A stretch of 64,000 bases of DNA from Arenibacter sp. ARW7G5Y1 (lineage in GTDB: Bacteria; Bacteroidota; Bacteroidia; Flavobacteriales; Flavobacteriaceae). The stretch is taken from assembly GCF_003201775.1 (NCBI RefSeq), contig NZ_QJJZ01000007.1, positions 1 to 64,000 on the forward strand, given 5' to 3'. Position 1 is the first letter of the stretch, and each line of letters opens with the position of its first letter. Made by a program: the position numbers and the translations under genes. Shown here piece by piece: positions 1,239 to 48,838 of this stretch. Below the pieces are notes generated by a model. It did no database searches, was not told where the DNA came from, and worked only from the letters and a program-made list of their open reading frames with translations.

Positions 1239-4200
1239 TTACGATTGGTCCTTCGGTACAAGGGGAGTCTTGGTCTTTCTTTTCCAAATTATTAAGAAAA
1301 AAACAGCTGCTACCAGTAACCCTAAAATTATATACCAGTAATTATCCATTGATGATGATAGTTCTATGGGTAGGGTGTCTCCCATTAAAATTAAACCCGC
1401 CCAGTATTGTGGATGAAGTGTTCTTCCCTCCGCATGATTTAAATAATCCAACTTTGCATTTTTTAGTGCCTCATCTTTGGGAAGGCCGTTTTCTAGATAT
1501 CCATAAAAGTTATCCAGGATGACAGTGCTTGATTGCTCATCAATTTGCCAAAGACTGGTTAAGATACTTTTACTGCCTGCGTAGTTGAAAGCATGTGCCA
1601 AGGAAATCATTCCCTCACCAGGTTGATAGCTGGGTTTTCCCGTTTCACAGGCTGTTAAGATCGCTAGATTGGAATTTAGGTTTTGATTATATATCTCATA
1701 GGTATATAGGTAATTGTCATTGATAAGGGTTGAATCGGAAATGTTCTTTGCAAAGACCAATCGCGACAGTTGGGGATTTACATTGTTTGATTCTGCATGA
1801 GTGCCGATGTGTATAATCTTATGCTCGTTTGCCGTTTTATTAAAAATGGCTTTAGATGCCTGTTGATTTAAAAATGACCTACCCCCAAAACGTTTGGAAT
1901 ATCTTTGTGCAATATCGGCACTGAACGGTTGCGGTAATAAGGTTAGGTAGGTTTTATCTATATCAATTGAATCGTTAATGGCTATTACATATGCTCTCTT
2001 CATACTTTCATCAAAGGTAGGTGCGAAGGCCACAAAGTCATTGTTGAAATCCAGTGTATTTTGGTTATCATCCAAGAGAAGTAGGCTATAATTATATGAG
2101 ATATTGTGTTTGGCCAAAAGACTTTTATTTGTCAGATCTTTAAAAGAATTAATTTTTTCAGCAGTAAGAAGTTCAAAATTTAAATTGAACAATTCTTGAT
2201 CGGGGAATATTATAACATTGTCAGTTTTTATCTTGTTTTGAATAGGTTCCCAAAGGGACTTATATAAATGTGAGAGGCACTCAAAAATTTCAGAACTGTT
2301 TTTTTGGTAATCCGAAATGGTGGCAATACAATCCAACGGTAAATTGGAAGGTAGGGGAACCATCTCCATGTTGTCCTTTGTTATGATGACGGCAACGAGG
2401 TCGTGGTCAATGAACAGATATCGTACCGCTGTGTACAACCCGTCAATATTCTTCTGCAGATTGCCCAATGGCGTTAGAACAGTACTATATTTTAATTCAT
2501 AATATAGCGGATACTCAGTTTTTAATTTAGCAAGGTAATCATCCCACTTCCGCAATTTGGCCTTCCAATCATCCACATCAAATTGAGTCCCTTCGGCCAT
2601 GTCAAAAAAGGAATTGATGTTCTTGCGCAGTACATCTTCCTCTTCTCTGATATTTACAGGTGTGAGCTTATTTTCTGATAGGTTGAGCCTGGTGCGTATT
2701 CGATGGTATATGGAAGATTCGTGAAGTTCGATGATTTTTTCCAGATATTTTTTCTCGCCGGTTATATCAAATATTTTACGATATACCTTTTTGCCAAAAT
2801 CAAATAATTCTCGACTATTCTCCAAGAGTACATTGATATCATCTTCGTTGGTGATCAATGATTTTTTTCGTTCAATTCTTTGAATGGCGTTCTCTATAAC
2901 CTTGGTGATTTTACCCAAACTCTCGATTGTTTTGACCGTGTCCATTTCATATTGAGCCTTGGTGAGGTAAAGCAACAATCTTAGTTGGTTTGGGCTAAAA
3001 AATTCTTCAGAAATTATACTGTTGAACGATTGGCTTTTGTACGAGCCCAAAATTTGATTGCTCAGTTCAATAGTTCCTTTATAATCTTTTTGATCAAAAA
3101 TTATTTTGACTTTGGCTATTCGCACCTCATTTGCCAAATAACTATCTGTTCCATGTACGGAAATAACCTCGGTAAGGGTGTTGTTGATAATACGAATACC
3201 TTCAGCATACTCATTCAGATTTGAATAAGATTTGGCCAGGTTGATATTGGCATAAACCTCATTTTGTGAAAATCCTTGTTCATTACTGTTTTTATACGCT
3301 TGAAGCGTTCTATGGTAATAGTCCACGGCTTCTTGGTAATTACCTTTTTGATAAGCTAAGTCGCCCAATACTCCGTAAAGGTTAGCTTGGTAAGAATAAT
3401 TTTCCCCTTTGATTGAGTTTAAAGAGGTTTTTGCTTCTTCCAGATAAATTTCTGCTTTTTCTAGGTCATTATTGTATAGTAATGATTCGCCAACCATCAA
3501 GGCGGCACCGAAATACTGTATCGTATTTTTTAAGAAGTATTTTTTTGCATGGTTATACCCTAGCATGGCAATTCTTTTTGCCTTTTCCTTCTCCCCTAAA
3601 TCGGAATACAGGCTTCCCAAATTTCTATAGGAGATAATTAGGTTTCCGTGCACTTTTTCCGTTAAGGGATGGTTATTGGTTTTGTTCAAAAAAGAATTGT
3701 AATGGTTTATTGTTTTTAATGTGAAACGCATGGCTTCATCAAAATTGCCGGCAGACTGTTTTACCATGAACCAATTGCCGTAGATGGTGCCCGGAAGATA
3801 ATCGGTTTGTTCTGGGTCGTTATCGGTTTTGTCCAAAGCATTGATGGCCTTTTTAAAATAGTAATCGGCACTGTCAGGTTTGGCATTAAAATGCATTAGG
3901 GCTCCTTTGTAATTGTATATTCTTGGTGCCAAAGGGAAATTGCCCGAACTGTTTTTTTGGATTAAATCAAGAGCGTTGTTGGTGTGTGCGATCAATTGTC
4001 CAAAATCTCCCATTTTAAGGCCCAACTCACTTAAATGAAATTCAGATTCAACCATTCGATGGACATCACCAAACTCTTTGGCCAAACGGTTTACCTTTAT
4101 TAAATATTTTTGTGCTTTTGGGGCAGTACCTTGATCTATGTACAAAATACCCATCCCCAAATTGGCGTCATAAGCAATAGTATCGTCTAATTTTCTGGAA

Positions 4201-36991: not shown

Positions 36992-37162
36992 CTAATTTTT
37001 TTGGAGGGCTACCAATTCTTCCAAGACTTCCTGTGCCTCTGCATATTTTTTGTCGCTTTCAGACCGATTAATGCTAGAAAGTGTATGCCACTCTTTCATA
37101 AGACCGTTGTATTTTATTTGAAGTTTCTCTTCCGTGGATTTGTTTCTAAATATTCCGAACAT
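36992..37162 (-). CDS. Lacal_2735-family small protein
   Basis: 56 residues, read on the minus strand from the ATG at 37162: MFGIFRNKSTEEKLQIKYNG, then LMKEWHTLSSINRSESDKKY and AEAQEVLEELVALQKN. This matches the flavobacterial Lacal_2735 family, short helical proteins of unknown role, often next to stress genes. It overlaps the last 49 bases of the glutathione peroxidase gene in another frame and would be translated from the same transcript. It was found by reading, as no longer frame covers it. Confidence 0.8.
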   Translation of the reverse strand: MFGIFRNKSTEEKLQIKYNGLMKEWHTLSSINRSESDKKYAEAQEVLEELVALQKN

Positions 37163-37707
37163 GACGAATTTTTTAAGTGTTGCGTAATTTTGGAACTCAT
37201 GGGTTTGGTATTGGAATAGAAATAATCTATCAAATTACCCTTTTCGTCCACGAGATATTTTTGGAAATTCCATTTTACAGTTGAATTTTTATGGCCATTC
37301 ATGGTTTTGTCTGTAAGCCACCTGTACAAAGGATGTTGGTCTTTCCCTTTAATATTGATTTTTTCGGTCATCAGGAAATTTGCCCCATAATTAACTTCAC
37401 AGAATTTTTCAATGTCTGCAGCCTTACCTGGTTCTTGACCTCCAAATTGATTACAGGGCAAGCCAATAACCACTATTTGGTTTTTATGAGTTTCATGGAG
37501 TTCCTGCAATTGCTTGTACTGGGGGGTAAAACCGCATTTTGAGGCCACATTTACTAAGAGGATGTATTTGCCCTCAAAGTCTTTCATATTAATGGGCGTA
37601 CCACTTAAGTTATTAATTTTGATGTCATAAATTGATGGCAAATGCGTCTTTTCCTTGGGTTTGGAACTAGTGAATAAGGTTTCGGCAAATATTTTGAAGG
37701 GATTCAT
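37114..37707 (-). CDS. Glutathione peroxidase family thiol peroxidase
   Basis: 197 residues. The thioredoxin-fold peroxidase motifs are clear: peroxidatic Cys58 in NVASKCGFTPQY (Cys instead of selenocysteine), Gln91 in GLPCNQFGGQEPG, and Trp146/Asn147 in VKWNFQKYL. Cys85 in LPCNQF is also in place. Bacterial members use thioredoxin to reduce lipid or hydrogen peroxides. The N-terminal ~22 residues form a short lead (FAETLFTSSKPKEKTHL) that may be a signal or anchor. The C-terminal ~20 residues overlap the Lacal_2735 gene. Starts 3 bp past the SDR stop, so it is in the folE operon. Confidence 0.93.
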   Translation of the reverse strand: MNPFKIFAETLFTSSKPKEKTHLPSIYDIKINNLSGTPINMKDFEGKYILLVNVASKCGFTPQYKQLQELHETHKNQIVVIGLPCNQFGGQEPGKAADIEKFCEVNYGANFLMTEKINIKGKDQHPLYRWLTDKTMNGHKNSTVKWNFQKYLVDEKGNLIDYFYSNTKPMSSKITQHLKNSSCSEYLETNPRKRNFK

Positions 37708-37710
37708 GCA

Positions 37711-38394
37711 TTAAATTTTAAAGGTTACTATGCCATAGTCCATTTCAAATATTTGTCCAGAGATGGAGGATGCCTTACCCGATAATAAAAATTCCGCCAT
37801 TTCTGCTACTTCCTTGGGGTTTAGAAATTTCTTTAAAGGATGGCGCTCTTTAATATTTTCGATCATTTTTTCATTGCGCAGAAGTTTCGACGCCAATTGG
37901 GTATCCGTAACTGTGGGAGCAATGGCGTTAATACGGATATTGGGTGCCAATTCCGCTCCAAGGGACTTTACCAAACCTTCTACCCCGGATTTGGCCGTTG
38001 CAATACTGGCATGATAGGGCATGCCCAATTTGGCGGCAACTGTGCTAAAGAGTAAAATTGAGGGCCGCTCGCTCTGTTTTAATACCTCCAAATACTTCTG
38101 AATGGCCTTGACCGCACCAACAACATTTATTTCAAAGTCTTCCCGAAAGTCTTCCAAACTTAACCGTGCTATTGGTTTTAAATTGATGCTTCCTGGACAG
38201 TATACCAAGGCATCCATGTTGGTAATTTCCGGTAAATCGTCGCTCAGGATATCAACATTATAATGAGTTAAGTTGGCATGGTGCTGTTCTGGGACCGATC
38301 TACTAAGGTTGATCACTCTATGGGAATCCAATAAAGTTTCAACAATAGCCTTGCCTATGCCTTTACTACCGCCAATTATAACTACTGTTTTCAT
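37711..38394 (-). CDS. SDR-family oxidoreductase with altered active site
   Basis: 227 residues. The N-terminal GGSKGIGKAI glycine motif (8-17) binds the nucleotide, and CPGSI (66-70) corresponds to the NNAG motif. At the active site Ser117 (LFSTVAA) is present and Lys135 in ASIATAKSG is present, but the Tyr of YxxxK is Ile131; Tyr127 lies four residues earlier. Such A-x-I-A-x-AK members recur in flavobacterial light/photolyase clusters, and their reaction is unknown. It is translated after the 76-residue gene with a 12-bp gap. Confidence 0.85.
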   Translation of the reverse strand: MKTVVIIGGSKGIGKAIVETLLDSHRVINLSRSVPEQHHANLTHYNVDILSDDLPEITNMDALVYCPGSINLKPIARLSLEDFREDFEINVVGAVKAIQKYLEVLKQSERPSILLFSTVAAKLGMPYHASIATAKSGVEGLVKSLGAELAPNIRINAIAPTVTDTQLASKLLRNEKMIENIKERHPLKKFLNPKEVAEMAEFLLSGKASSISGQIFEMDYGIVTFKI

Positions 38395-38406: not shown

Positions 38407-38637
38407 TTATACTTGGCTCACCAAGTTTCGGCCTTTTAACCTTTTTTCCACTTTACGTTTTATAGCGGTTAGGCGTTTCATGATGTCCATAATACTGTCA
38501 TCCTTCTTGCTTTTATAAATTTCATTCAGGCCTAGTATCAAGGCTTTTGCTTTTCTCGAAATTTCAATTCTGTCGCTAGTGGAAAGCGATTTTAGTTTTC
38601 TTTGTTCAAATTCCAATGCTTCGTTTATGATGTCCAT
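38407..38637 (-). CDS. Small conserved flavobacterial protein
   Basis: 76 residues, basic and helical, starting MDIINEALEFEQRKLKSLST and including IMKRLTAIKRKVEKRLKGR. No known domain, no membrane segment. It lies between folE (4-bp gap) and the SDR gene (12-bp gap) and so belongs to that operon. I recognise it as a recurrent neighbour of this cluster but not its function; a nucleic-acid or protein-binding role would suit the basic composition. Confidence 0.75.
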   Translation of the reverse strand: MDIINEALEFEQRKLKSLSTSDRIEISRKAKALILGLNEIYKSKKDDSIMDIMKRLTAIKRKVEKRLKGRNLVSQV

Positions 38638-38641
38638 AATT

Positions 38642-39340
38642 TTAGTCTTTAATGTAGTTTTGTAATTCTGTTATTTTTGATGCTGTATTGAATTTTCCTC
38701 CATAATAGGAGGTTACCGTCGTGGAGGATTCGTCCTTAATGCCCCTGGAGGAAACACATAGATGTTTGGCGTCAATAATGACGGCCACGTCCTCCGTACC
38801 CAAAATAGTTTTTAGATCCTCCGCAATTTGGTTGGTTAGACGTTCCTGAACTTGGGGCCTTTTGGCATAATATTGTACAATTCTGTTCAACTTGGACAAG
38901 CCTATTACTTTACCAGTGGAAATATAGGCTACATGTGCTTTCCCTATAATTGGTACAAAATGGTGTTCGCAGTTGGAATAGAAGGTAATGTTCTTCTCTA
39001 CCAACATTTGATTGTATTGATATTTGTTGTCGAATAAAGCGATCTTTGGCCTGTTCTTTGGATTTATTCCAGAAAAAATTTCATCGATATACATCTTGGC
39101 AACACGTTCTGGTGTGCCCTTTAAGGAATCGTCAGTTAGGTCCATCCCCATAACGTCCATAATTTCCTGAAACAATAGGGCAATACGTTGTTTTTTCTCC
39201 GTATCCGAAAGTTCAAATGCATTTGCTTTCAATGGTGTATCCAAACCGGTATATAGATGGTCGTCGCCAATATCAGCAAGGGTAAAACCATTTAATTTAT
39301 GGCCATTTATTTTATTTGGGGCTACAGTTTTTGTGTTCAT
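38642..39340 (-). CDS. folE: GTP cyclohydrolase I
   Basis: 232 residues. After a 40-residue non-conserved N-terminus the fold is complete: TPERVAKMYIDEIFSG, zinc ligand Cys124 with H126/H127 in SNCEHHF, GLSKLNRIVQYYAKRPQVQERL and the second zinc ligand Cys195 in KHLCVSSRG. It converts GTP to dihydroneopterin triphosphate, the first step of folate and pterin synthesis. Its place among redox and light-type genes suggests pterin for a methenyltetrahydrofolate antenna or similar need (inference). It is followed by the 76-residue gene with a 4-bp gap. Confidence 0.96.
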   Translation of the reverse strand: MNTKTVAPNKINGHKLNGFTLADIGDDHLYTGLDTPLKANAFELSDTEKKQRIALLFQEIMDVMGMDLTDDSLKGTPERVAKMYIDEIFSGINPKNRPKIALFDNKYQYNQMLVEKNITFYSNCEHHFVPIIGKAHVAYISTGKVIGLSKLNRIVQYYAKRPQVQERLTNQIAEDLKTILGTEDVAVIIDAKHLCVSSRGIKDESSTTVTSYYGGKFNTASKITELQNYIKD

Positions 39341-39394: not shown

Positions 39395-39661
39395 TTAGCG
39401 TTTTGTAATTGCGTTTTGTGTAATCTGGTTTTGTCCAGAACATTTAAAGTGTCCTTGAGCTGGTGTTCTTAATTTTTGGTGTGTGATGGCGCGGACTTCA
39501 GCAATTTGATGCCAAGTTTTAAAGCCATTTGGAGTCATTTCCAGGCCCATGGGATTAACCACTTCTTGCCCAAAGATTGAAAACTGATAGGTTATGGCTT
39601 CAAAAGGTGTTCTTTTTATCCAGGCCATTCCAATTATACGGTCAATATCCCCTTTGCTCAA
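39395..39661 (-). CDS. DUF2805 / TIGR03643-type protein
   Basis: 88 residues if started at the TTG at 39661, which overlaps the upstream TGA as TTGA; otherwise from the internal ATG (MAWIKRTPF). The core SKGDIDRIIGMAWIKRTPFE, then AITYQFSIFGQEVV and FKTWHQIAEVRAITHQKLR, is the DUF2805 (TIGR03643) pattern. This small family is known to co-occur with cryptochrome/photolyase genes. The C-terminal tail after HQKLR is variable. A Shine-Dalgarno-like AAAGGAG lies directly before the TTG, oddly close, so the start is unsure. Confidence 0.8.
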   Translation of the reverse strand: MSKGDIDRIIGMAWIKRTPFEAITYQFSIFGQEVVNPMGLEMTPNGFKTWHQIAEVRAITHQKLRTPAQGHFKCSGQNQITQNAITKR

Positions 39662-40095
39662 ACTCCTTTAAAATTTAAAAAATCATATTTGGATTCATAT
39701 CCGGCTTTTTGTTTCAACAACTTATGTAGGAAAGATTTACTTTTTTCAAAGGCTACATCCCTTCTGAACCGAATAAATCGCCCTTGGGCATATAGACTAC
39801 TACAGTCGTTGTTGTAAATTATCAGTTGGTAATATGGAATAACCCATGTGAAATTGGTAAGACCTTTAAAGATTCCCACCAGTATTCCTAAAGGCCGCAA
39901 TTCAATATTGGCGTAAGTAGCGTCAAAGGAGCTATTGAGAAAATCTTTCATATTGGCGCTGTATTCCTCTATAATCATTCTATTGGAAACAGTCCCTTTC
40001 ATCCTTATGGATTTTATAAGGTTGAATGGTTTCCCAACCAGATCATTTATAAGTAGGGAAATATCTTTGTTACTATGTGAAGTTTCTAAAATCAT
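39658..40095 (-). CDS. Conserved flavobacterial protein, light/folE cluster
   Basis: 145 residues, no membrane segment or signal. Recognisable parts are IELRPLGILVGIFKGLTNFTW and YYQLIIYNNDCSSLYAQGRF, then a basic C-terminus (SFLHKLLKQKAGYESKYDF). I have seen the same pattern next to DUF2805 and photolyase genes in flavobacteria, always hypothetical. Its promoter region carries the conserved inverted repeat at 40121-40165, and its stop overlaps the DUF2805 start, so it heads the operon leading to folE and the peroxidase. The function is unknown. Confidence 0.78.
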   Translation of the reverse strand: MILETSHSNKDISLLINDLVGKPFNLIKSIRMKGTVSNRMIIEEYSANMKDFLNSSFDATYANIELRPLGILVGIFKGLTNFTWVIPYYQLIIYNNDCSSLYAQGRFIRFRRDVAFEKSKSFLHKLLKQKAGYESKYDFLNFKGV

Positions 40096-40120
40096 CTTAC
40101 CGTTGCACTCTTCTCAAAGT

Positions 40121-40165
40121 TACAAAATGTTTAATGGATTTTAAAATAAGTTAAACAAAATTTAA
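40121..40165 (-). promoter_or_regulatory. Proposed operator/promoter block 1 (inverted repeat TGTTTAA-N16-TTAAACA)
   Basis: This 45-bp block is nearly the same at its two ends as 43679-43723: both start TACAAAATGTTTAA and contain TTAAACAAA at the same offset and TTTAA at the end, while the middle diverges. TGTTTAA (40128-40134) and TTAAACA (40151-40157) are a perfect inverted repeat. It lies 26 bp upstream of the 145-residue gene. Preservation of the arms but not the spacer is what a transcription-factor site looks like. The likely binder is the MerR regulator. Confidence 0.7.
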
Positions 40166-40208
40166 TTCTATTTTTCTATAATACTATAAGCTATGGTTAT
40201 GGAAAACT

Positions 40209-41633
40209 CTATCTGGAAACCAGTTTATTGATCAAGCCATTGAAAATAAGACCATGAAAGGGGTAGACGCTGTACCAGTACAAACGGCCAGCAATTCCAC
40301 GGGGCCTAAAGGTTGCGGTCTGTTTAAGAAGTCCATTCTCAATTCTAAATTCGAGCCAAGCCTCTCCCGGAAGCTTCATTTCTGCATATAGTAATAATTT
40401 TTTTTCTTTCTTATCACTGAAAATTACCCGCCAAAAATCCAAAGCATCACCGGCATCCAATTCTGAAATATGGGTTCTTCCCCTACGTAGACCGATACCC
40501 CCTGCCAATTTGTCCAGATATCCCCTTATTTTCCAGAGAAAATTTCCATAGTACCAGCCCGTGGTACCTCCGATAGACCAAATTTTGTTAATCGTGTCCT
40601 CCTCATTTTGGATTTTACGTTCTTTATAATCCTTAAAACATCCGTATATGGGAACATTAATGTATTTGTGAAGGTTATTCTTTAGTCGGCCACTGCTAAT
40701 CATGGAATCTTTCCAGCTAGACACAATACTGTTCTGTTCAATTTTTTCGAAAGCCAATTGCACCGCCTCTTTATATGTTATAGGGTGCACGTCCAGGAGT
40801 TGATTGATATTACTGGATTTTCCAACGATTTGCACGCCCATGCTATCCACTAAGGTAGTTGCCAATTTGTAGGAGGTAGAGGTTACAAAGTAAAGCCAAT
40901 AGGAAGAAAGTTTTGGGGTCATGACCGGTACGGTTAAAATATACCGTTTTAACCCCCGGATTTCTGCAAATTTTAAGAGCATTTGCTTATAGGTCAAAAT
41001 TTCTGGCCCAAAAATGTCAAATGAGGTGTTGTAAAGATCTTTCCTTGCTTTTGCTTTTGATAAAAAGGCCAAAACATCCCTTACTGCCAGGGGTTGGGTT
41101 TTGGTGTTGAGCCATTTCGGAGCTACCATTACGGGGAGTTTCTCCACAAGATCCCTAATGATCTCAAAAGATGAACTTCCCGATCCCACAATGATACCTG
41201 CCTTAAAAACGGTGAGTGCGTACGAATCCGAAGCTAGAATTTCCTCCACATTTTTTCTGGACTGTAAATGTTTGGAAAGTTGTTCCTCATTTGTAATACC
41301 GCTTAAATAAATTACTTGTTTTAAGTTGGTAGAGGAAAAATAGTTTTTGAAATTGGCCGCACAGGCCGCTTCCAAACGCTCAAAATTGTTCGAAGAATTG
41401 GACATGGAGTGTATTAAATAGTACGCCACATCAATATCTTTGGGGATATATTTTAAAGTTTCCGGTTTTAAAAAATCGGCCTCTACAATACTGATATTAT
41501 CATCCTCTAGGTAGGTTTTGTCGGCTCTTAATGTATCGCGTACAACACAGACCACCTGATGCCCTTCGTTAGTTAAAACGGGAATCAATCTTTTGCCGAT
41601 ATACCCTGTGGCTCCTGTTACGAGAATCTTCAT
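40209..41633 (-). CDS. SDR-family oxidoreductase with C-terminal DUF2867
   Basis: 474 residues. N-terminal extended-SDR Rossmann domain (GATGYIGKRLIPVL at 7-20, AYYLIHSMSN near 94, VFKAGIIVGSGSSSFEIIRD near 163) fused to a DUF2867 domain (about 330-474, GGIGLRRGRTHISELDAGD, LFWRVI-like and GEAWLEFRI). This arrangement, also seen in TIGR01777-like NAD(P)-binding proteins, is frequent beside photolyase and carotenoid genes. Reaction unknown. It follows the AarF gene with a 43-bp gap; the TetR-AarF-SDR trio looks like one transcript. Confidence 0.88.
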   Translation of the reverse strand: MKILVTGATGYIGKRLIPVLTNEGHQVVCVVRDTLRADKTYLEDDNISIVEADFLKPETLKYIPKDIDVAYYLIHSMSNSSNNFERLEAACAANFKNYFSSTNLKQVIYLSGITNEEQLSKHLQSRKNVEEILASDSYALTVFKAGIIVGSGSSSFEIIRDLVEKLPVMVAPKWLNTKTQPLAVRDVLAFLSKAKARKDLYNTSFDIFGPEILTYKQMLLKFAEIRGLKRYILTVPVMTPKLSSYWLYFVTSTSYKLATTLVDSMGVQIVGKSSNINQLLDVHPITYKEAVQLAFEKIEQNSIVSSWKDSMISSGRLKNNLHKYINVPIYGCFKDYKERKIQNEEDTINKIWSIGGTTGWYYGNFLWKIRGYLDKLAGGIGLRRGRTHISELDAGDALDFWRVIFSDKKEKKLLLYAEMKLPGEAWLEFRIENGLLKQTATFRPRGIAGRLYWYSVYPFHGLIFNGLINKLVSR

Positions 41634-41676
41634 TTTTTATATTATATGGGATACACTGTTCAACCTATTCGAAACA

Positions 41677-42987
41677 TTAATATTTATTAAAGTTGTTGAT
41701 CTTAATGTTGCTGGCTTTTAAATCGAACATAAGGTTATATAGTCCAAAAAAGGTCCTATTAATATAGATGAAATGTTTGGAGCCCCTATTGCCGTTCATT
41801 TTACGCAGTTCCGTACTCTTTGAGTAGCGCTGTCCCAATTCCGTGATTTTACCGAAGAACCCACTATCTGAAAAATCGAAGGTTTCTGCCTGAAACGGCT
41901 GGGTGAAAAGGCTCAACAATTCATGGAACATTGCAGTGAAGAATTCCGTTTCCTCTTTTGAATCGTCTTTACGTAAAATTTCCAGTTCGTATAATTTGCT
42001 CACAAAAAAATTATGGTCCCTTATATTTTCCGGTTTCGCCAGTTCAAAATAAGGGACATAAAATTCCTCGGGAATAATTTTCATACAACCGAAATCGAGT
42101 GCTATCAATTTACCTTCCCTGGATACCAAGAAATTTCCAGGATGTGGGTCGGCATGAACTTTTTTCAGTCTGTGAATCTGAAACATATAAAAATCCCAAA
42201 GGGCCTGTCCCAACTTATTGGCCTTATCCTGATCGGTGTTATAGCCCGTAAACTCAGAAAGATGTTCTCCTTGCATGTAGTCCATGGTAAGAATTCGGTC
42301 GGAGGACAATTCTTCGTAATATTGGGGAAACAAAAGGTTGTGAATTCCTGAGCAGGCTTCGGCAATTTCCTTGCTTTGTTCCATTTCCAATACATAATCT
42401 GTTTCCTCTAGTAACTTTCCTTCAACTTCCTTGAAGTACTTGTCCGAATCTTTGCCTTTTATGTTAAACATTTTTATAGCAATGGGCTTAACTAGGGCAA
42501 GGTCGGAGGCTATACTATCGGCAACTCCTGGATATTGGATTTTCACAGCAAGTTTTTTCCCATCTTTTACTGCCTCATGGACTTGACCAATACTGGCAGC
42601 GTTTACTGAAGTTGTGTTGAAGGAATCAAATAGTTCATTGGGCAGTTTGCCAAAATAATTTTTAAATGTCTTGATTACCAAGGGAGGTGATAATGGGGGG
42701 ACGGAAAACTGCGCCAAGGAAAATTTCTCCACATATGCTTGGGGCAATATGCTTTTTTCCATACTTAACATTTGGGCAACTTTTAGAGCACTTCCTTTGA
42801 GCTGTTTTAGGCTGTCATAAATATCTTCGGCATTGTTCTCGTTAAGTCTTGTTCTTGCCTGAAGCTCGGTTTTTGTAAGTTTATCACCATAGTACTTCAG
42901 GTAATTTACCCCAACCCTGGCACCCGTGGACACCAATTTTGTGGCACGATGTATTTTTGAAACAGGTATATTGTCTATGGTTTTCAT
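41677..42987 (-). CDS. AarF/ABC1/UbiB-family kinase-like protein
   Basis: 436 residues with ABC1 signatures: the A-rich KxGQ-like region LKQLKGSALKVAQMLS (about 61-75), VNAASIGQVHEA, AVKIQYPG with the catalytic-loop HADPHPGNF and metal-binding LDFGCMK. These atypical kinases support ubiquinone/menaquinone or isoprenoid metabolism and possibly lipid quinone extraction. Its pairing with a TetR regulator and SDR is recurrent in flavobacterial light/stress clusters. It follows TetR by 10 bp, so they are co-transcribed. Substrate unknown. Confidence 0.93.
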   Translation of the reverse strand: MKTIDNIPVSKIHRATKLVSTGARVGVNYLKYYGDKLTKTELQARTRLNENNAEDIYDSLKQLKGSALKVAQMLSMEKSILPQAYVEKFSLAQFSVPPLSPPLVIKTFKNYFGKLPNELFDSFNTTSVNAASIGQVHEAVKDGKKLAVKIQYPGVADSIASDLALVKPIAIKMFNIKGKDSDKYFKEVEGKLLEETDYVLEMEQSKEIAEACSGIHNLLFPQYYEELSSDRILTMDYMQGEHLSEFTGYNTDQDKANKLGQALWDFYMFQIHRLKKVHADPHPGNFLVSREGKLIALDFGCMKIIPEEFYVPYFELAKPENIRDHNFFVSKLYELEILRKDDSKEETEFFTAMFHELLSLFTQPFQAETFDFSDSGFFGKITELGQRYSKSTELRKMNGNRGSKHFIYINRTFFGLYNLMFDLKASNIKINNFNKY

Positions 42988-42997
42988 CTATCAATTT

Positions 42998-43654
42998 TTA
43001 GTTCTTGTGCATTCTTTCCTTGAAAAGAAATTTTCCAAAGTCGACCACACTTTTAAGTGGGGTAATGTTCAAAATATCAAAACTAGTATTGACGGATTTT
43101 TCTATAAAAATATCGGTCTTTTCAAAAGAAGCTGAGGTATCTTCCATCCAGAATTTAAGGGTCAATAACAATTGTAGCCAGGCCGATTCCTGTAGGGCCC
43201 GGCGTTGGATTTTATCTATTTGCTCCTGTTTTAGGTCAAGAGTCTCTATATTGAGACCCTCAACGAAGGAGACAAAGCTCTTTTTTAGCTCCGATAATAG
43301 GGCTAAACTTTTAAGACTGTTTTTATGCTGCTGCAAGGCATAAACCACATAACTTCGGTTGGCTGTCAAATTTTCGAAAAAGGTGAAGTAAAAACTCAAT
43401 AGTTTATTACGCGCATCGAAAGATTTATAATCATCGCTTTTCAGCAAGACAGAAATAGTGTTGTTGAAAATAGCTTTAAATACATGTTTTTCAACAGCCT
43501 CAAAAGAACCAAAAAATTTATAAAATTCCGATTCTTCAAAATTGTTGGCTTTGGCGAAAGCGTTGACCGACTTTGGATTTTCATTATGTTCCAGGACAAA
43601 ATCCATGTAGGATGCAATTATGTCGTTTTCTGAAATAGTTTTCTTTTTTGCCAT
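42998..43654 (-). CDS. TetR-family transcriptional regulator
   Basis: 218 residues. The N-terminal HTH of about 10-55 (ISENDIIASYMDFVLEHNEN, SVNAFAKANNFEESEFYKFF) is TetR-like, and the rest is helical ligand-binding C-terminal domain (ENLTANRSYVVYALQQHKN, LQLLLTLKFWMED). Likely autoregulatory and controlling the aarF-SDR genes downstream. Its promoter region carries the proposed MerR operator at 43679-43723, 24 bp from the start. The ligand is unknown. Confidence 0.85.
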   Translation of the reverse strand: MAKKKTISENDIIASYMDFVLEHNENPKSVNAFAKANNFEESEFYKFFGSFEAVEKHVFKAIFNNTISVLLKSDDYKSFDARNKLLSFYFTFFENLTANRSYVVYALQQHKNSLKSLALLSELKKSFVSFVEGLNIETLDLKQEQIDKIQRRALQESAWLQLLLTLKFWMEDTSASFEKTDIFIEKSVNTSFDILNITPLKSVVDFGKFLFKERMHKN

Positions 43655-43678
43655 GACTTTGAATTGTAGGGCACAAGG

Positions 43679-43723
43679 TACAAAATGTTTAACCTTTTTA
43701 TTGAAATATTAAACAAACTTTAA
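43679..43723 (-). promoter_or_regulatory. Proposed operator/promoter block 2 (same inverted repeat and spacing)
   Basis: TGTTTAA and TTAAACA recur with the same 16-bp spacer as in block 1 at 40121-40165, in the promoter of the TetR gene. The first 14 bases (TACAAAATGTTTAA) and the last part (TTAAACAAA then TTTAA) are identical to block 1, the middle is not. This argues for a shared regulator, most simply the MerR protein two genes upstream. Confidence 0.7.
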
Positions 43724-43936
43724 CTTGAATTTAGGGCGAAGAGCTTGCAGAAACCTTTAAAAGGCCAAGTGTATTCCTTTATTACCCATTTAAAGCGTTT
43801 TACCAATGGGAAATAGGTTCACATCCCTTTATGGCGATTAGGAGGGGTGCCACCTCTTCGTTAAGGGGTTGTACATCAATAAAGTAGGTCTGAAACAGGA
43901 GCAGCTTCTAAGTGGAATTTCAATGCTCATACGTTT

Positions 43937-43955
43937 GTCTGCCTCATCGGCAGAC
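43937..43955. repeat. Short hairpin GTCTGCC/GGCAGAC, second occurrence
   Basis: Same 7-bp arms as at 9987-10006 with a 5-nt loop. It is 37 bp past the MerR stop. It has no T-run and is unlikely to be a terminator. Probably related to the repeat family of this genome. Confidence 0.5.
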
Positions 43956-43992
43956 TGCCTCACCTAGGGTAACTGACTTAAACCTTGGGGTA

Positions 43993-44892
43993 TCAAAGGC
44001 TTTCGACCAAATGATCTATCTTGGAAAAGGCAACTATGGATTTAGGCAAATCTTTTTGATTTATGTCTTGGAGCATTTTTCCCGATATCCAAAGCTCTGA
44101 AGTAGTATCCTTTAGCAGCAAGTCGTAAAAATCCTTAAGATAGGCCATAATATTCTCCCTGTGCGGTTGTACCGTAAAATAGGAAACAAATACAATATTG
44201 TTGTATAAGGGTAATAAATCCTTTAAACAGGGTATGGGGATGCTTTGTCCAAGAAATATGGCATGGTAGCCTTTGGACAGGATTTCATAATTCAGGAACA
44301 TTAATCCCAACTCGTGAATTTCATTATCGGGAAGGTATAGCACAAAATTCTTGGAGGAATTAGTGGGCGTACTGAATTGCAACTTTTCCGTATTTACCAA
44401 AATCTTTTGTTTGATCAGGGCGCAAATAAAATGTTCATGGGAGGGTGTTATGGTATCGGTTTGCCATAACAGTCCTACTTCATTTAAAAAAGGGATAAAA
44501 TCGTCATAGAAGATCTCCCTAAACGACTTTTCCTTTAAAAGCCCATTATAGGTTTTGGAGAATAAGGCCTGGTCAAAATTCATCATGGCCATTTTAAAGG
44601 AATTTAAAACATGTCCGTTATTGCTTTGATCGGAAACCAAATTTCTTACTACGCCGGGAATTTTATCCTCCCCCAACTGAGAAATCTTGGAAATTTTATA
44701 ACCGTTATTGTAAAGGAATGTAACATTAAGAAGTTTTTGCAGGTTCTCTATATCATAGCATCTAATGTTGGTATCCGTTCTGTTAGGTTGAAACAGATTG
44801 TAGCGTTTTTCCCATATTCTAATGGTATGGGCCTTAATTCCTGAGAGATTTTCAAGGTCCTTTATGCTAAAATTACTTTTAACGTTGTTCAT
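43993..44892 (-). CDS. MerR-family regulator with cobalamin-binding photoreceptor-type domain (CarH/LitR-like)
   Basis: 299 residues. N-terminal MerR HTH (about 8-70, FSIKDLENLSGIKAHTIRIW, EKRYNLFQPNRTDTN). The middle helical domain has W143-x9-E153-H154 (LLWQTDTITPSHEHF), the signature of CarH where it covers the 5'-deoxyadenosyl group. The C-terminal B12-binding-like domain has DNEIHELG (ExHxxG with His193) and FLGQSIPI. This combination is the mark of adenosylcobalamin-dependent light-sensing repressors. It probably represses the cluster in the dark and releases on light, but binding of cobalamin is inferred. Its own upstream region has a TTAAACAAAAAT half-site. Confidence 0.85.
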   Translation of the reverse strand: MNNVKSNFSIKDLENLSGIKAHTIRIWEKRYNLFQPNRTDTNIRCYDIENLQKLLNVTFLYNNGYKISKISQLGEDKIPGVVRNLVSDQSNNGHVLNSFKMAMMNFDQALFSKTYNGLLKEKSFREIFYDDFIPFLNEVGLLWQTDTITPSHEHFICALIKQKILVNTEKLQFSTPTNSSKNFVLYLPDNEIHELGLMFLNYEILSKGYHAIFLGQSIPIPCLKDLLPLYNNIVFVSYFTVQPHRENIMAYLKDFYDLLLKDTTSELWISGKMLQDINQKDLPKSIVAFSKIDHLVESL

Positions 44893-44908
44893 TTATTTTA
44901 AAAAAAGA

Positions 44909-44920
44909 TTAAACAAAAAT
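44909..44920 (-). promoter_or_regulatory. Half-site TTAAACAAAAAT upstream of the MerR gene
   Basis: TTAAACAAA matches the right arm of the operator pair found at 40121-40165 and 43679-43723. It lies 17 bp upstream of the MerR start, without an exact left arm. It may be a weaker autoregulatory site, or chance in AT-rich DNA. Confidence 0.4.
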
Positions 44921-45092
44921 ATGGTTTTTATGATTCATTTCAAAGTTTTGTTCGAGGCTTAATATGCCAGTATGTTGGTGTGCCTAGCCATATATAGGTT
45001 GTGTAAGAAAATGGAATACATTGAAAATACAGGATTTTCAATATTTGCCATAGCAATGGCAAATCGTATCTTTATAGCTGAACAAATAAGAA

Positions 45093-47327
45093 TTGAAATC
45101 ATACAGCCAACTCATTTTTAATAATCTTAGGGAACTGCTCTACTTTTTAAAAAGTACTAATTTCTCCAAGGCCATTCTGATTGCCATAGCTGTTACGGTA
45201 CCTATTTTACTTTCCATTAAGTGGGGGCATTTGGAAATTGGATTGGCCCTTTGCTTTGGGGCTTTTTGGAGTTCACCTAGTGATGTGAGCGGTAATTTTC
45301 GACACAAAAAGTTGGGGATCCTATTTTCTGCGGTCCTGGTTATGGTGGTAAGTTTCATTGCAGGTTATTTGAAATTAGAAACTAGATTACTTATTCCCGT
45401 TTTGGGATTGTTAACATTTGCTATCGCTTTTATTTCCGTGTATGGGTTTAGGGCCTCCCTTATTAGTTTTTCCGGCTTACTGGCCTTGGTATTGAGCTTT
45501 GCCCACGAATCCCAGGAACTCGAAATTTATGAATACGCAATTTTAATAGGGGTTGGGGGACTATGGTATTTGTTTTTGGCAGTGCTTTGGTACCATATAA
45601 ACCCTAAGGCGCAAACCGAAGAACTTTTTGGGGAGACCTATAGGCTTACTGCTGAATTTTTGGAAACCAGGGGGCAATTGGTTGGTCCTAAGACGGACCG
45701 ATTGGAATTGCAGTCCAAATTATATGAAATACAGAGTAAGTTAATTGAGCATCATGAAACCCTAAGGGAAATATTGCTTCTTTCGAGGAAAAGTTCTGGA
45801 AGATCAAGTTATCAGGCCAAGAGGCTGTTGATCTTTGTTGAATTGATAGATATGCTCGAAACGGCGATCGCCAATCCTGTCAATTATGATAAAATGGATG
45901 CGCTTCTTGGAGATCACCCAGAGTTTATAGAGAGCTTTCAGAATTTAATATTCGAAATGGCAAGTCAACTAAGGTTAATTGCCGACATGGGAGCCGACCA
46001 TAATAAGTTTCCCAAAAATTCCAAATTGGCACAATGTTTTGAAAAGGTGGAAAATGAAATAACAAGTTTCAGGAACGATACGGGTGCTGGGGATTTTGAG
46101 GGGGGACTTATGCTTCAAAACCTATTTCATTATCTGGAAAAACAATTTGAGAAGCTTAAAAAGATAAAATGGCTTCTTGGAAATCCGGATATGGGTTCGG
46201 TAGATTTAATAGACCAGGCTGCGGCCAGACGCTTTATAGTTCCCCAGGATTACGATCCCAAACTATTGCTGAGTAACTTTAGTTTTAGGTCTACCATATT
46301 TAGACACTCGTTAAGGTTGTCCGTGACCGTTATGGTGGGGTATGCCCTTGGTAATTTCTTCGATTTTCAAAACCCGTATTGGATACTATTGACTATTATA
46401 GTCATAATGCGGCCCAGCTACGGCCTTACTAAATCCCGTACAAAGGATAGGATTATTGGAACACTTTTAGGTGGTGCTATTGCTACCGGTTTTGTTTTTT
46501 TAATACAGAACCCTTATGTATTTGGGGTTTTGGGAGTGGTGTCTTTGGTCGTAGCCTTTTCAATGGTGCAAAAAAATTATAGGGCAGGGGCTACCTTTAT
46601 AACACTTACCGTAGTATTCGTTTATGCCATTATCCGTCCGGACATAATAACCGTAATACAGTACAGAATATTGGATACGCTCATCGGTGCTGGCCTGTCC
46701 TTTATGGCCATGTTGTGGATTTTGCCGGCCTGGGGGTTTATGGAGATCAGGGAACAAATAGAAAATAGCGTTAAGGCCAATAGGGAGTTTCTTGCCCAAA
46801 TTGCCCATTATTATGAACTAAAGGGAAAGGTGACTACCACTTATAAGATTTCCCGTAAGGAAGCTTTTGTGGAAACTTCCAACCTTAGCTCGGCCTTTCA
46901 GCGCATGGCACAAGAACCTGTATCAAAACAAAAGAATCTGGATAAAATATATGAACTGGTTGTGCTGAACCATACTTTTCTGTCATCTTTGGCATCCTTT
47001 AGCACATATATCCAGAACAACCCTACCACTGAGGCTACGTTAAAATTTAAAAAATTTATTTCTCAAATTGATAAAAACCTAGAGCAGGTACTTCTTGCTT
47101 TGGAAGGTTCAAAATTGGACCAGGCCCTTGTTGACCGTCAGAACGGTCCAAACTCCAAGGAACAGCTACCTACTTTTGTTCCACAAAGGATAGAACTTTC
47201 CTCTCCCATGGATATAAAATTGGAGCGCGAGCTTCAGGAAGCCCATTTGGTAACCGAACAATTACAATGGTTGTATTCCTTAAGTGGGAAAATGTTAAGG
47301 TTGGTCTCGAAAATTGAGTTTGACTAG
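45093..47327 (+). CDS. FUSC-family (YccS/YhfK-like) membrane protein
   Basis: 744 residues. The first conserved residues begin at a TTG (LKSYSQLIFNNLREL), and no nearer ATG is available. Two membrane blocks of about six helices each (20-165 and 400-545, the second with YWILLTIIVIMRPSYGLTKS) surround a cytoplasmic helical region, the YccS/FUSC architecture related to fusaric acid resistance and aromatic acid exporters. Substrate unknown. It is divergent from the MerR gene, with 200 bp between. Confidence 0.9.
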   Translation: MKSYSQLIFNNLRELLYFLKSTNFSKAILIAIAVTVPILLSIKWGHLEIGLALCFGAFWSSPSDVSGNFRHKKLGILFSAVLVMVVSFIAGYLKLETRLLIPVLGLLTFAIAFISVYGFRASLISFSGLLALVLSFAHESQELEIYEYAILIGVGGLWYLFLAVLWYHINPKAQTEELFGETYRLTAEFLETRGQLVGPKTDRLELQSKLYEIQSKLIEHHETLREILLLSRKSSGRSSYQAKRLLIFVELIDMLETAIANPVNYDKMDALLGDHPEFIESFQNLIFEMASQLRLIADMGADHNKFPKNSKLAQCFEKVENEITSFRNDTGAGDFEGGLMLQNLFHYLEKQFEKLKKIKWLLGNPDMGSVDLIDQAAARRFIVPQDYDPKLLLSNFSFRSTIFRHSLRLSVTVMVGYALGNFFDFQNPYWILLTIIVIMRPSYGLTKSRTKDRIIGTLLGGAIATGFVFLIQNPYVFGVLGVVSLVVAFSMVQKNYRAGATFITLTVVFVYAIIRPDIITVIQYRILDTLIGAGLSFMAMLWILPAWGFMEIREQIENSVKANREFLAQIAHYYELKGKVTTTYKISRKEAFVETSNLSSAFQRMAQEPVSKQKNLDKIYELVVLNHTFLSSLASFSTYIQNNPTTEATLKFKKFISQIDKNLEQVLLALEGSKLDQALVDRQNGPNSKEQLPTFVPQRIELSSPMDIKLERELQEAHLVTEQLQWLYSLSGKMLRLVSKIEFD

Positions 47328-47530
47328 TAGATCTGTAGTAACTTTTTAGGTAGTGTTCTTGGAGGTCGTATCTATAAGTGGCACGGATAGCTCCTTATTA
47401 TGAGCTATAATAATCGTGGTCACCAATCCTTTTATGATCAATACTTGTAAATATTGCTTGTCCATTGCAATTTGAAGCATTTATGTATTTTTACAATTAT
47501 GACATTTATTTACAATAACATCTTTAATTT

Positions 47531-48838
47531 ATGATCAAAAGAATTATTCTTACCCCTTTCCAAAAATTCGTAAAAATTGAGAGTTTAAGTGGTGTTCTCT
47601 TGTTTAGCGCCACACTCATAGCCATGATTTGGGCCAATTCTGGGTTTAGTGAATCCTACAATTCCTTATGGCAATATAAAATAGGCATTGGTTCCGATGC
47701 GTTTCAGCTTACAAAACCCCTTTCTTTATGGATCAACGATGGGCTCATGGCCTTGTTTTTCTTTTTGATAGGATTGGAAATAAAAAGAGAATTGCTGATT
47801 GGGGAACTCAATGAATTTCGAAAGGCTATATTTCCATTGTTTGCTGCTCTCGGGGGAATGCTTTTCCCTTTGGCTCTGTTCCTTTTTTTAAATGATCGGC
47901 CCCAAACGGCACCGGGATGGGGAATCCCCATGGCAACGGATATAGCCTTTTCATTGGCCATACTTCAGCTCTTGGGAAATAGGGTTCCCTTAAGTTTAAA
48001 GATATTCCTTACGGCCTTTGCCATAGTGGACGATTTGGGCGCAGTCTTGGTTATTGCAATTTTTTATAGTGGTGGGGTTGATTGGTTTTTGATCTTGTAT
48101 TCATTAATTCCCTTTCTAATACTTTCTTATCTTGGATTTAAAGGTATTTATTCCAAATATATGACTGTAATTCTTGGATTTATTATTTGGTTGCTATTTT
48201 TGAAATCGGGAATACATCCAACGATAGCAGGTGTACTTGTGGCATTTACCGTGCCAATACGGCAAAAGATCGATATGAATTATTTTAAGGAGAACCTTTC
48301 CAAAATAATTGAAGGTATTTCCCAATCCAATAACGAAAAGGTTCCGATCTTGTCCAAAGAACAAATAGGGCATATGGACGACCTTGACGATTTGACCGAT
48401 AAATTTACCTCACCACTTCAGAGGTTGGAACATCGACTTCACGGCTGGGTAGCTTATTTTATTATGCCGGTTTTTGCCCTGGCCAATGCGGGAGTGGTTT
48501 TCAGTACCAATGTGGATTTTGATATCCCTTTGATGATGAATATCGCCATAGCTTTATTTCTTGGTAAATTGTTTGGGATTACATTGATGTCTTGGTTGGG
48601 GGTTAAACTCCGGTTGGCGCTATTGCCCGGTGATATGAACTTTGTTCAGGTTACTGGAATAGCTATTTTGGCAGGGGTAGGCTTTACCATGTCCATTTTT
48701 ATTGCCAATCTGGCATTTTCAGATAATGCAATACTGATAGATTCGGCTAAGGTGGGTATCTTGATAGGTTCGGTTGTTTCCGGTCTGGTGGGGTATCTGG
48801 TACTAAGGTTTAGTGGTGGAAAGAAAAAGGATCAATAA
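47531..48838 (+). CDS. nhaA: Na+/H+ antiporter NhaA
   Basis: 435 residues, twelve transmembrane helices. Family landmarks: IGLEIKREL (near 80-88), ATDIAFSLAIL with Asp137, and AIVDDLGAV with Asp167/168, the paired aspartates that bind Na+. The GFTMSIFIANLAF segment near the end is typical. It exchanges internal Na+ for protons and supports pH and salt homeostasis, which suits a marine cell. A hydrophilic insert of about 45 residues (SQSNNEKVPILSKEQIGHMD) precedes the last helices. Start ATG has no strong SD, as is usual here. Confidence 0.96.
   Translation: MIKRIILTPFQKFVKIESLSGVLLFSATLIAMIWANSGFSESYNSLWQYKIGIGSDAFQLTKPLSLWINDGLMALFFFLIGLEIKRELLIGELNEFRKAIFPLFAALGGMLFPLALFLFLNDRPQTAPGWGIPMATDIAFSLAILQLLGNRVPLSLKIFLTAFAIVDDLGAVLVIAIFYSGGVDWFLILYSLIPFLILSYLGFKGIYSKYMTVILGFIIWLLFLKSGIHPTIAGVLVAFTVPIRQKIDMNYFKENLSKIIEGISQSNNEKVPILSKEQIGHMDDLDDLTDKFTSPLQRLEHRLHGWVAYFIMPVFALANAGVVFSTNVDFDIPLMMNIAIALFLGKLFGITLMSWLGVKLRLALLPGDMNFVQVTGIAILAGVGFTMSIFIANLAFSDNAILIDSAKVGILIGSVVSGLVGYLVLRFSGGKKKDQ

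Follow-up and report, generated by a model that had tools for sequence, protein, structure and literature searches.

We propose that the MerR-type regulator encoded in the analyzed window, a stretch of 64,000 nucleotides from Arenibacter sp. ARW7G5Y1, is probably (at roughly 0.77) a divergent AdoCbl-binding repressor of the CarH type that would be relieved by light and would act through an inverted-repeat operator, TGTTTAA-N16-TTAAACA. The operator with its exact spacing, the promoter registers of its main targets, its joint occurrence with merR, and the conservation of the B12-contacting residues can be read from the sequences themselves. We infer that MerR binds this operator, acts as a repressor, and takes AdoCbl and light as its signals, basing the role of light and B12 on the Wx9EH and ExHxxG motifs, on homology with CarH of T. 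thermophilus, and on the carotenoid, photolyase, and rhodopsin genes among the targets. A B12-based light sensor with a single operator could explain how flavobacteria turn on their light biology; it would link B12, which many bacteria import, to photoprotection and phototrophy, and any flavobacterial genome can be screened for the 30-bp operator of the named regulator.

The sequence-only reading had described two 45-bp blocks with identical arms and the same 16-bp spacing (40121-40165 and 43679-43723), each holding a perfect inverted repeat, and both observations were reproduced: the blocks read TACAAAATGTTTAA-N16-TTAAACAAA-[A/C]TTTAA, and the palindromes within them are the operators O1 and O2 of table 1. 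The genome-wide search proposed there returned only these two exact copies in 5.73 Mb (46 contigs), both within the merR cluster, and not the frequent, random occurrence that would have refuted the reading. None of 100 shuffles of the window sequence yielded a match, and the shuffles, the reversed-pattern controls, and a survey of 149 genera ruled out a chance origin of the palindrome. When two mismatches were allowed, the whole genome gave 80 matches compared with 118 for the reversed control; because such sites were no commoner than in the control, only exact or near-exact sites were considered meaningful. Nine one-mismatch palindromes elsewhere in the genome were left out as further targets because none of them had a -7 box in register, and no exact operator was found at the photolyase, crt, or rhodopsin genes of the Arenibacter genome.

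Table 1. Positions in the window of the regulator gene, the operators, the predicted -7 boxes, and the genes of the two candidate target operons
Feature	Position	Strand	Basis or remark
merR, 299-aa MerR-type regulator with B12-binding_2 helical bundle, CarH homologue	43993..44892	-	Pfam, motifs
merR auto-operator, TGTTTAA-N16-TGAACA	44886..44915	-	two mismatches to ideal
merR -7 box TATTTTTG	44914..44921	-	register -6, overlaps left arm of auto-operator
Operator O1, TGTTTAA-N16-TTAAACA, TetR-ABC1-NmrA operon promoter	43686..43715	-	exact; position kept in genus relatives
-7 box TACCTTGT (TAnnTTGY type), TetR operon promoter	43673..43680	-	register +35 from operator start
TetR_C_23 regulator of the TetR family, heading operon 1	42998..43654	-	Pfam 2.3e-47
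ABC1/AarF (UbiB-like) atypical kinase	41677..42987	-	Pfam ABC1 1.4e-52
NmrA/DUF2867 SDR-like protein	40209..41633	-	Pfam DUF2867 5.6e-32
Operator O2, TGTTTAA-N16-TTAAACA, p145-DUF2805-folE-p76-SDR(-GPx) promoter	40128..40157	-	exact; position kept in genus and family relatives
-7 box TAACTTTG, p145 operon promoter	40115..40122	-	register +35
p145, 145-aa protein, first gene of operon 2	39658..40095	-	conserved behind operator
DUF2805 protein	39395..39661	-	Pfam 1.7e-17
folE, GTP cyclohydrolase I	38642..39340	-	NCBIfam NF006824 3.9e-83, over cut-off
p76, 76-aa conserved protein	38407..38637	-	conserved in operon relatives
Short-chain dehydrogenase (SDR)	37711..38394	-	Pfam 4.4e-36
Glutathione-peroxidase-like protein (GPx), last gene of operon 2 set	37114..37707	-	Pfam GSHPx 3.8e-37

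At merR itself, where a single half-site had been claimed, we found instead a full operator whose right arm coincides with the start codon (44890-44892) and codon 2 of the gene. This arrangement was conserved among relatives. A left arm with at most one mismatch stood exactly 16 bp before the start-codon arm in 77 of 79 merR loci (mismatches at this position: 0 in 49, 1 in 28, 2 in 1, and 4 in 1), and where an exact TGTTTAA occurred within 70 bp of the merR start (51/79 loci), it was exactly 16 bp away in 49 of the 51. Codon 2 was uniform among 103 merR genes (AAC 100, AAT 2, GAA 1), whereas codon 3 varied (AAC 28, AAT 59, others 16; AAC/AAT usage of codon 2 vs. codon 3, P = 1e-24), and both loci with AAT as codon 2 (L149 and L200) had lost the left arm at the 16-bp position. 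These two and loci L202 and L207 were unmatched by the pattern script, the latter pair showing the 16-bp spacing by eye. Arm pairs facing outward in 80 merR loci comprised 26 at 16 bp, 11 at 17 bp, and six at other spacings, compared with two pairs in the opposite orientation; no start motif was found in three of 46 merR loci (L154, L206, and L215).

The relationship of MerR to CarH was supported by Pfam matches (MerR_1, 1.3e-12, over the cut-off; B12-binding_2, 1.6e-9) and by comparison with the CarH structures 3whp/5c8d (E = 3e-13 as a single sequence and 5e-18 as a profile). The W-x9-EH signature and ExHxxG motif reported for this protein lie at W143-x9-E153-H154 and E191-x-H193-x2-G196, and both were present in all 81 proteins checked (the window MerR and 80 homologues). 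The W, E, and H of Wx9EH and the RxWExRY motif align with T. thermophilus CarH. CarH homologues are said to be defined by two motifs, of which Wx9EH is one (PMC8156234). The protein is nonetheless divergent: it scored 64.8 bits against the CarH equivalog NF052513 of NCBIfam and thus fell below the curated cut-off of 400 bits, the C-terminal half of its Rossmann part is diverged, and the first Gly of the GG motif is not kept. In the remainder of the B12 motif, the second Gly is present and the Ser of SxT/V aligns; the third residue of SxT/V is Phe. The residue after the Trp is Gln in MerR versus His in T. thermophilus CarH, in which this His becomes the upper ligand in light (PMC9304148). It is this exchange, together with the partly altered B12 motif, that lends some weight to a reading in which MerR would bind the same sites with no light response and would react to the AdoCbl level, to redox state, or to a partner protein, like CarA and class II LitR; class II LitR proteins are described as acting via a LOV partner (PMC9758184), and proteorhodopsin (PR) expression as constitutive in one Dokdonia strain (PMC3587595). 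We consider this reading unlikely, because the adenosyl-contacting motif Wx9EH, whose Trp is lost in CarA (PMC9304148), is kept in 81/81 proteins, and because carotenoid, photolyase, and rhodopsin genes are among the targets. The Arenibacter genome also has a gene for an adenosyltransferase and contains a cobalamin riboswitch, both in keeping with an AdoCbl-binding MerR.

The putative light-relieved repressor resembles the CarH proteins of T. thermophilus, Bacillus megaterium, and Myxococcus xanthus (class I LitR) in its RxWExRY DNA-binding domain, in Wx9EH and ExHxxG, in operators that overlap predicted sigma-A promoters, and in a crtI gene lying directly behind merR in 70 of 78 relatives' loci; it differs in the Gln after the Trp, in the uncoupling of the window merR from crt genes, and in the operator itself. 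Characterized CarH operators are tandem 11-bp direct repeats, nAnnTnnACAn (PMC9304148, PMC8156234), whereas in the flavobacterial operator two TAAACA cores form an inverted repeat, with their centers 24-25 bp apart. A CarH-like direct-repeat operator was ruled out, since TnnACA was not in excess at 11 or 22 bp: among 144 oriented sites, same-strand TnnACA occurred 0, 4, 0, and 2 times at -22, -11, +11, and +22 from the arm core, with a mean over offsets of 1.5 and peaks of 36 at -21 and 9 at -33, the peak at -21 being ascribed in our reading to TTTG in the -7 box that adjoins the arm. This suggests that CarH-like proteins may read an inverted repeat that spans about two of the known direct repeats. 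Parallels with the class II LitR/PplR system of Pseudomonas lie in the genes: in P. putida, light induces phrB (photolyase), folE, and cryB, among others, and in P. mendocina the phrB cluster that light induces includes an SDR gene; however, class II LitR proteins keep only the helical bundle, work with LOV partner proteins on TGTACA-N12-TGTACA sites (PMC9758184), and belong to another phylum. Membership in that class was ruled out by the presence of ExHxxG and the following Rossmann region. CarA of M. xanthus, a repressor of the MerR-B12 type, acts on a crt promoter through an operator with inverted repeats, but its Wx9EH motif has lost the Trp and it functions independently of B12 (PMC9304148); membership was ruled out by the Trp present in 81/81 proteins. 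In flavobacterial carotenoid clusters, for instance in Nonlabens spongiae, a MerR gene is listed at the head of crtI-crtB-crtZ (PMC11855829), as in the Flavobacterium loci here; it is named there with no operator, signal, or regulon. No description of the flavobacterial operator or regulon was found in the open-licence literature searched.

The operator overlaps predicted sigma-A promoters at merR, crtI, p145, and TetR, both the boxes and the starts being predictions. O1 and O2 each lie 5 bp ahead of a flavobacterial -7 box of the TAnnTTGY type (PMC9723704). Measured from the operator start, the predicted -7 box began at -6 for merR, at +15 for crtI (8/9), and at +35 for p145 (8/8), registers that are about two helical turns apart; in each of them the operator covers the -7 region or abuts it. 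The crtI leader would be very short. The box in register -6 recurred in 39 of 46 further merR loci; a -7 box in register was lacking at 4 of 17 genus sites and at roughly half of the sites before fasciclin and rhodopsin genes. These positions bear on whether MerR could instead be a classical MerR-type activator that twists a long promoter spacer. In the window operons, the operator falls at about -47 to -18 of the predicted start (taking the box as -12 to -5; PMC9723704), near the sites of such activators, but at merR and crtI, with registers of -6 and +15, it lies across both the -7 box and the predicted start, a position in which a classical activator could hardly work, and we therefore regard this alternative as very unlikely.

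Co-occurrence across genomes connected the palindrome with merR. All 18 genus genomes carried it (one to four copies each, 33 in total, reversed control 0). Some of the Arenibacter loci compared may represent the same species twice. In a family survey of 149 genera, with one genome per genus, the exact palindrome was present in 120 of the 123 genomes that encode a merR orthologue and missing in three, and it was found in 4/9 with only a distant MerR paralogue and in 0/17 with neither (Fisher P = 2.8e-19 for the association with the orthologue, a value that is inexact because the genomes share ancestry); family-wide, there were 462 sites compared with 20 for the reversed control. The paralogue is represented in Arenibacter by a second MerR on contig 4, 33% identical to the window MerR and also bearing Wx9EH and ExHxxG, and these motifs and the four of nine genomes could suggest that O1 and O2 are in fact bound by this second protein. 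This is slightly less probable still than a classical activator, since the contig-4 merR adjoins three related but different sites, TGTCTAA-N17-TTARACA (also in L098), and its product was not found in six deeper operator-bearing members of the genus (E ≤ 1e-5). TetR proteins commonly recognize palindromic sites in the promoters of their own genes and TetR is the first gene behind O1, but a TetR that would bind the palindrome to regulate itself and operon 2, with MerR a bystander, is the least probable reading of all and was rejected on co-occurrence, because the palindrome was present in 23/24 genomes with a merR orthologue and no TetR homologue (E ≤ 1e-10) and in 3/7 with TetR and no merR orthologue, all three with a MerR paralogue, and because the operator also lies in the merR promoter and before crtI.

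We thus regard direct control of both window operons by MerR, as the sequence-only reading had suggested, as strongly supported by the co-occurrence of palindrome and merR, by the site in the merR promoters of most relatives, and by the fixed distance to the -7 box. The claim is less certain for GPx, the least secure member of operon 2, which was not seen beside SDR in L128, L137, and L138. Neither p145 nor p76 matched a family in Pfam or NCBIfam at E 0.001. In the mechanism that we propose, AdoCbl-loaded MerR would bind TGTTTAA-N16/17-TTAAACA in the dark, and the bound operator, covering or abutting the sigma-A promoter of the target, would block RNA polymerase; in light, the Co-C bond would be broken and MerR would release the DNA, allowing transcription of the target operons and of merR. 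The targets in Arenibacter would be three promoters, those of merR, TetR-ABC1-NmrA, and p145-DUF2805-folE-p76-SDR(-GPx), and elsewhere in the family the same operator would serve crtI-crtB-crtZ, photolyases, fasciclin proteins, and proteorhodopsin-like genes.

Among 70 family sites, 68 lay outside open reading frames and 66 no more than 200 bp from a start; 49 preceded crtI, TetR, p145, photolyase, fasciclin, NmrA, folE, or rhodopsin genes. The family-wide targets comprise crtI-crtB-crtZ, TetR-ABC1-NmrA, the folE set, photolyases, fasciclins, and rhodopsins. The operator accompanied 36 of 50 rhodopsin genes, compared with 0.15 expected, and eight rhodopsin genes in MerR-bearing genomes had no site with at most one mismatch. 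We presume these rhodopsins to be proteorhodopsins from their mutual similarity, the Pfam family being what was tested. Three distant rhodopsins (L285, L286, and L287; about 280 aa, 24% identical to the query), which we take to be possible sodium pumps, had a best site with three mismatches in L286 and none within three in L285 and L287. We give even odds to the broader proposal that a B12-dependent photoreceptor repressor of the Flavobacteriaceae exerts direct control over proteorhodopsin as well as over genes for carotenoids, photolyases, and pterins via the inverted-repeat operator, so that phototrophy would be gated by light and B12 supply; our estimate was kept at this level because PR expression in Dokdonia PRO95 has been called constitutive (PMC3587595).

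The regulon of a CarH-like MerR protein, noted by the sequence-only reading as acting on two neighbouring promoters, is real and larger than claimed, extending family-wide; light and B12 are its putative signals. As far as our literature searches show, three features are new: the form of the operator, the way it overlaps the start codon of merR, and its position before rhodopsin genes. The two 45-bp blocks described from the sequence are present in the window, which spans bases 1-64000 of contig 7, and the genome-wide motif search suggested at that time returned TGTTTAA-N16-TTAAACA twice in 5.73 Mb, with both copies in the window. On the coding strand, both copies read TGTTTAA-N16-TTAAACA-TTTTG, followed by a flavobacterial -7 box. 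Passages of a mapping study in Flavobacterium psychrophilum (PMC9723704) describe two types of flavobacterial box, both located at -12 to -5: the sigma-A box TAnnTTTG and a second type, TAnnTTGY.

Positions of the operators and associated features
Feature	Position	Strand	Detail
Operator before the TetR-ABC1-NmrA operon	43686..43715		
-7 box of the TetR operon			TACCTTGT, directly after TGTTTAA-N16-TTAAACA-TTTTG
Operator before the p145-DUF2805-folE-p76-SDR(-GPx) set	40128..40157		
-7 box of the p145 operon (p145, gene of a 145-aa protein)			TAACTTTG, directly after TGTTTAA-N16-TTAAACA-TTTTG
merR	43993..44892	-	299 aa
merR auto-operator	44886..44915	-	right arm includes the start codon (44890-44892)
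744-aa membrane protein gene	45093-48838		divergent to merR
Second MerR system (L098)	contig 4, 90757-97700		33% identical paralogue

Across the genus, one to four exact palindromes per genome were found in 18 of 18 genomes, all of which encode MerR, and the reversed motif gave 0. In the family, the palindrome was present in 124 of 149 genomes (149 genera), with 462 copies compared with 20 for the reversed control; thus, a few per cent of the family copies may be due to chance. It was found in 120 of 123 genomes with a merR orthologue (E<=1e-55), in four of nine with only a paralogue of the 33% type, and in 0 of 17 with neither. The TetR homologue was a poor predictor of the palindrome, which occurred in 23/24 genomes with a merR orthologue and no TetR homologue, and in 3/7 with the reverse combination.

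The 299-aa protein contains MerR_1 and B12-binding_2 domains above Pfam cut-offs, and its best sequence match among solved structures was Thermus thermophilus CarH (E 3e-13 from the single sequence, 5e-18 from a profile of 37 sequences). The Wx9EH and [DE]xHxx[GP] motifs were kept in 81/81 proteins (the window protein, 79 orthologues and one paralogue; L095, one of the 80 merR loci, was left out). Compared with T. thermophilus CarH (reference sequence from a plasmid record), the W, E, H and lower-ligand H were aligned; Gln takes the place of the His that follows the Trp, and only one of the two GG glycines is kept. Judged by its sequence, the window MerR is a CarH homologue under the two-motif definition; it did not reach the NCBIfam CarH equivalog (64.8 bits vs 400 required). 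A supply of AdoCbl to the host is plausible, because the genome has a cobalamin riboswitch and an adenosyltransferase gene, one of each.

The register, counted from the operator's first base to the start of the -7 box, was identical in 16/16 cases at p145 and TetR promoters with exact sites, taken from ten loci of the genus. In loci L125-L138, photolyase and fasciclin promoters included, a box lay in register -6, 14/15 or 35 at 13 of 17 sites, and the other four had no box in these registers. The box lay at -6 in 39 of 46 further merR loci, at +15 before crtI (8/9) and fasciclin (7/14) genes, at +35 before p145 (8/8), and at +14 (5/13) or -6 (3/13) before rhodopsin genes, a set of 13 rows in which L255 and L313 represent the same site. 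Among 11 TetR promoters, TAnnTTTG was at +35 in two; by eye, the same position held TAnnTTTA in seven and TAnnTTGY in the window copy. Registers -6, +15 and +35 are separated by 20-21 bp, or two DNA turns, and in every register the bound protein would lie over or against the -7 region; a repressor occluding polymerase, as CarH does, would therefore fit better than an activator. TGTTTA and TAAACA, the two cores of the operator, each match TnnACA, the core of known CarH sites, but stand inverted, with 24 or 25 bp between their centres. Passages of PMC9304148 and PMC8156234 describe the known CarH operators as tandem direct repeats, an arrangement that showed no excess here. A dimer or tetramer with two-fold symmetry and long linkers might be able to read both.

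At merR itself, a stretch TAnnTTTGTTTAA-N16-ATGAACA recurred across 79 loci, with the right arm, ATGAACA, consisting of the start codon and codon 2. At exactly 16 bp upstream of the aligned start codon, the left arm had no mismatch in 49 loci, one in 28, two in one and four in one. Exact TGTTTAA was found somewhere in the upstream 70 bp in 51 loci, at 16 bp in 49 of them, and three copies lay at 35 or 38 bp. An operator arm is embedded in the merR start codon in the window and in L016-L095. The 16-bp arrangement was also looked for in 46 additional loci (29 from other genera): its left arm was exact in 34, and had one mismatch in six and two in two; four (L149, L200, L202 and L207) had no script match, and the spacing was visible by eye in L202 and L207. 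Among 113 loci (in 103 of which the aligned codon is ATG), AAC was used in 100/102 Asn codons at codon 2 and 28/87 at codon 3, and in 496/1491 elsewhere in the same 79 merR genes. Both loci with AAT at codon 2, L149 and L200, had lost the left arm at that place; L200 instead carried a near-palindrome with a spacer of 17 immediately 5' of the start. In ten loci, the start-aligned codon is ATA or GTA, the ATG lies one codon upstream, and the arm, [AG]TAAACA, is closer to the ideal TTAAACA. From these comparisons of codon use, arm loss and shifted starts, we infer that the DNA, beyond the constant peptide, is held constant at the merR start. In the genus member G006 (L128 and L149), the auto-operator is decayed with AAT at codon 2, and TetR, ABC1 and folE were not seen in the cluster.

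The genes behind the operator were called for 70 exact sites, out of at least 73 in 18 genomes that do not include the window's own (one G150 and two G047 sites were left out), by best match to reference proteins, using the matching side where genes diverge. Of these sites, 68/70 were outside ORFs, and 66/70 had an ORF start no more than 200 bp away. First genes were TetR (10), crtI (9), p145 (7), SRPBCC or TspO leading to photolyase (3), NmrA (2), folE (1) and rhodopsin (1), which together with fasciclin account for 49 sites. The commonest first gene was fasciclin-like (16/70). Other first genes included fatty acid desaturase, Porph_ging domain proteins of uncharacterised role (L228, L242, L253 and L259) and HSP90-like genes (L227, L237 and L267, two of which diverge from the TetR operon; only L227 scanned). 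At position 3001 of both L254 and L274, the operator precedes a GHMP-kinase gene, which we take to be mevalonate-kinase-like, with a UbiA prenyltransferase gene next in L254, the one scanned; isoprenoid supply under operator control is possible from these sites. Remote from merR in the genus, SRPBCC-photolyase targets were found in three fetched genomes and fasciclin targets in four. Directly after merR lies crtI in 70 of 78 loci with enough sequence; in eight Arenibacter loci, whose MerR is 85-90% identical to that of the window (the nearest named relatives in the scan), it is TetR, not crtI. The membrane protein divergent to merR, presumably FUSC-like, is in the same place in L128, L137 and L138, and an NhaA-like gene lies behind it, also in L137.

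A Bac_rhodopsin search gave matches in 66/299 genomes and none in that of the window. The rhodopsin loci examined in Flavobacteriaceae were L255 (position 8447) and L285-L334. In a set of 50 loci (30 from the 299-genome search, whose remaining places lie outside the set, and 20 from a second search), an exact operator was found within 200 bp upstream in 22 and one with a single mismatch in 14 (36/50 together); dinucleotide shuffles gave 0.15 sites per set (maximum 2 in 40 sets). No site with one mismatch or fewer was seen before three distant, longer rhodopsins, three genes of MerR-less genomes (G020, G175 and G220) or eight more of MerR-bearing genomes, two of which had two mismatches; thus, the link is common, not universal. 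Passages on Dokdonia PRO95 (PMC3587595) call PR expression constitutive and its regulation open.

On contig 4 of the same genome, a second MerR-B12 protein lies beside fasciclin, crtB, crtZ, photolyase and DUF2797 genes; crtI had no match within this stretch. It is accompanied by three TGTCTAA-N17-TTARACA-type sites, of which one has a single mismatch. The recognition helices of the two MerR proteins differ (HTIRIWEKRY vs HTLRKWESRY), in line with the changed half-site. Arenibacter may thus have a division of labour, with the paralogue at carotenoid genes and the window MerR at stress operons.
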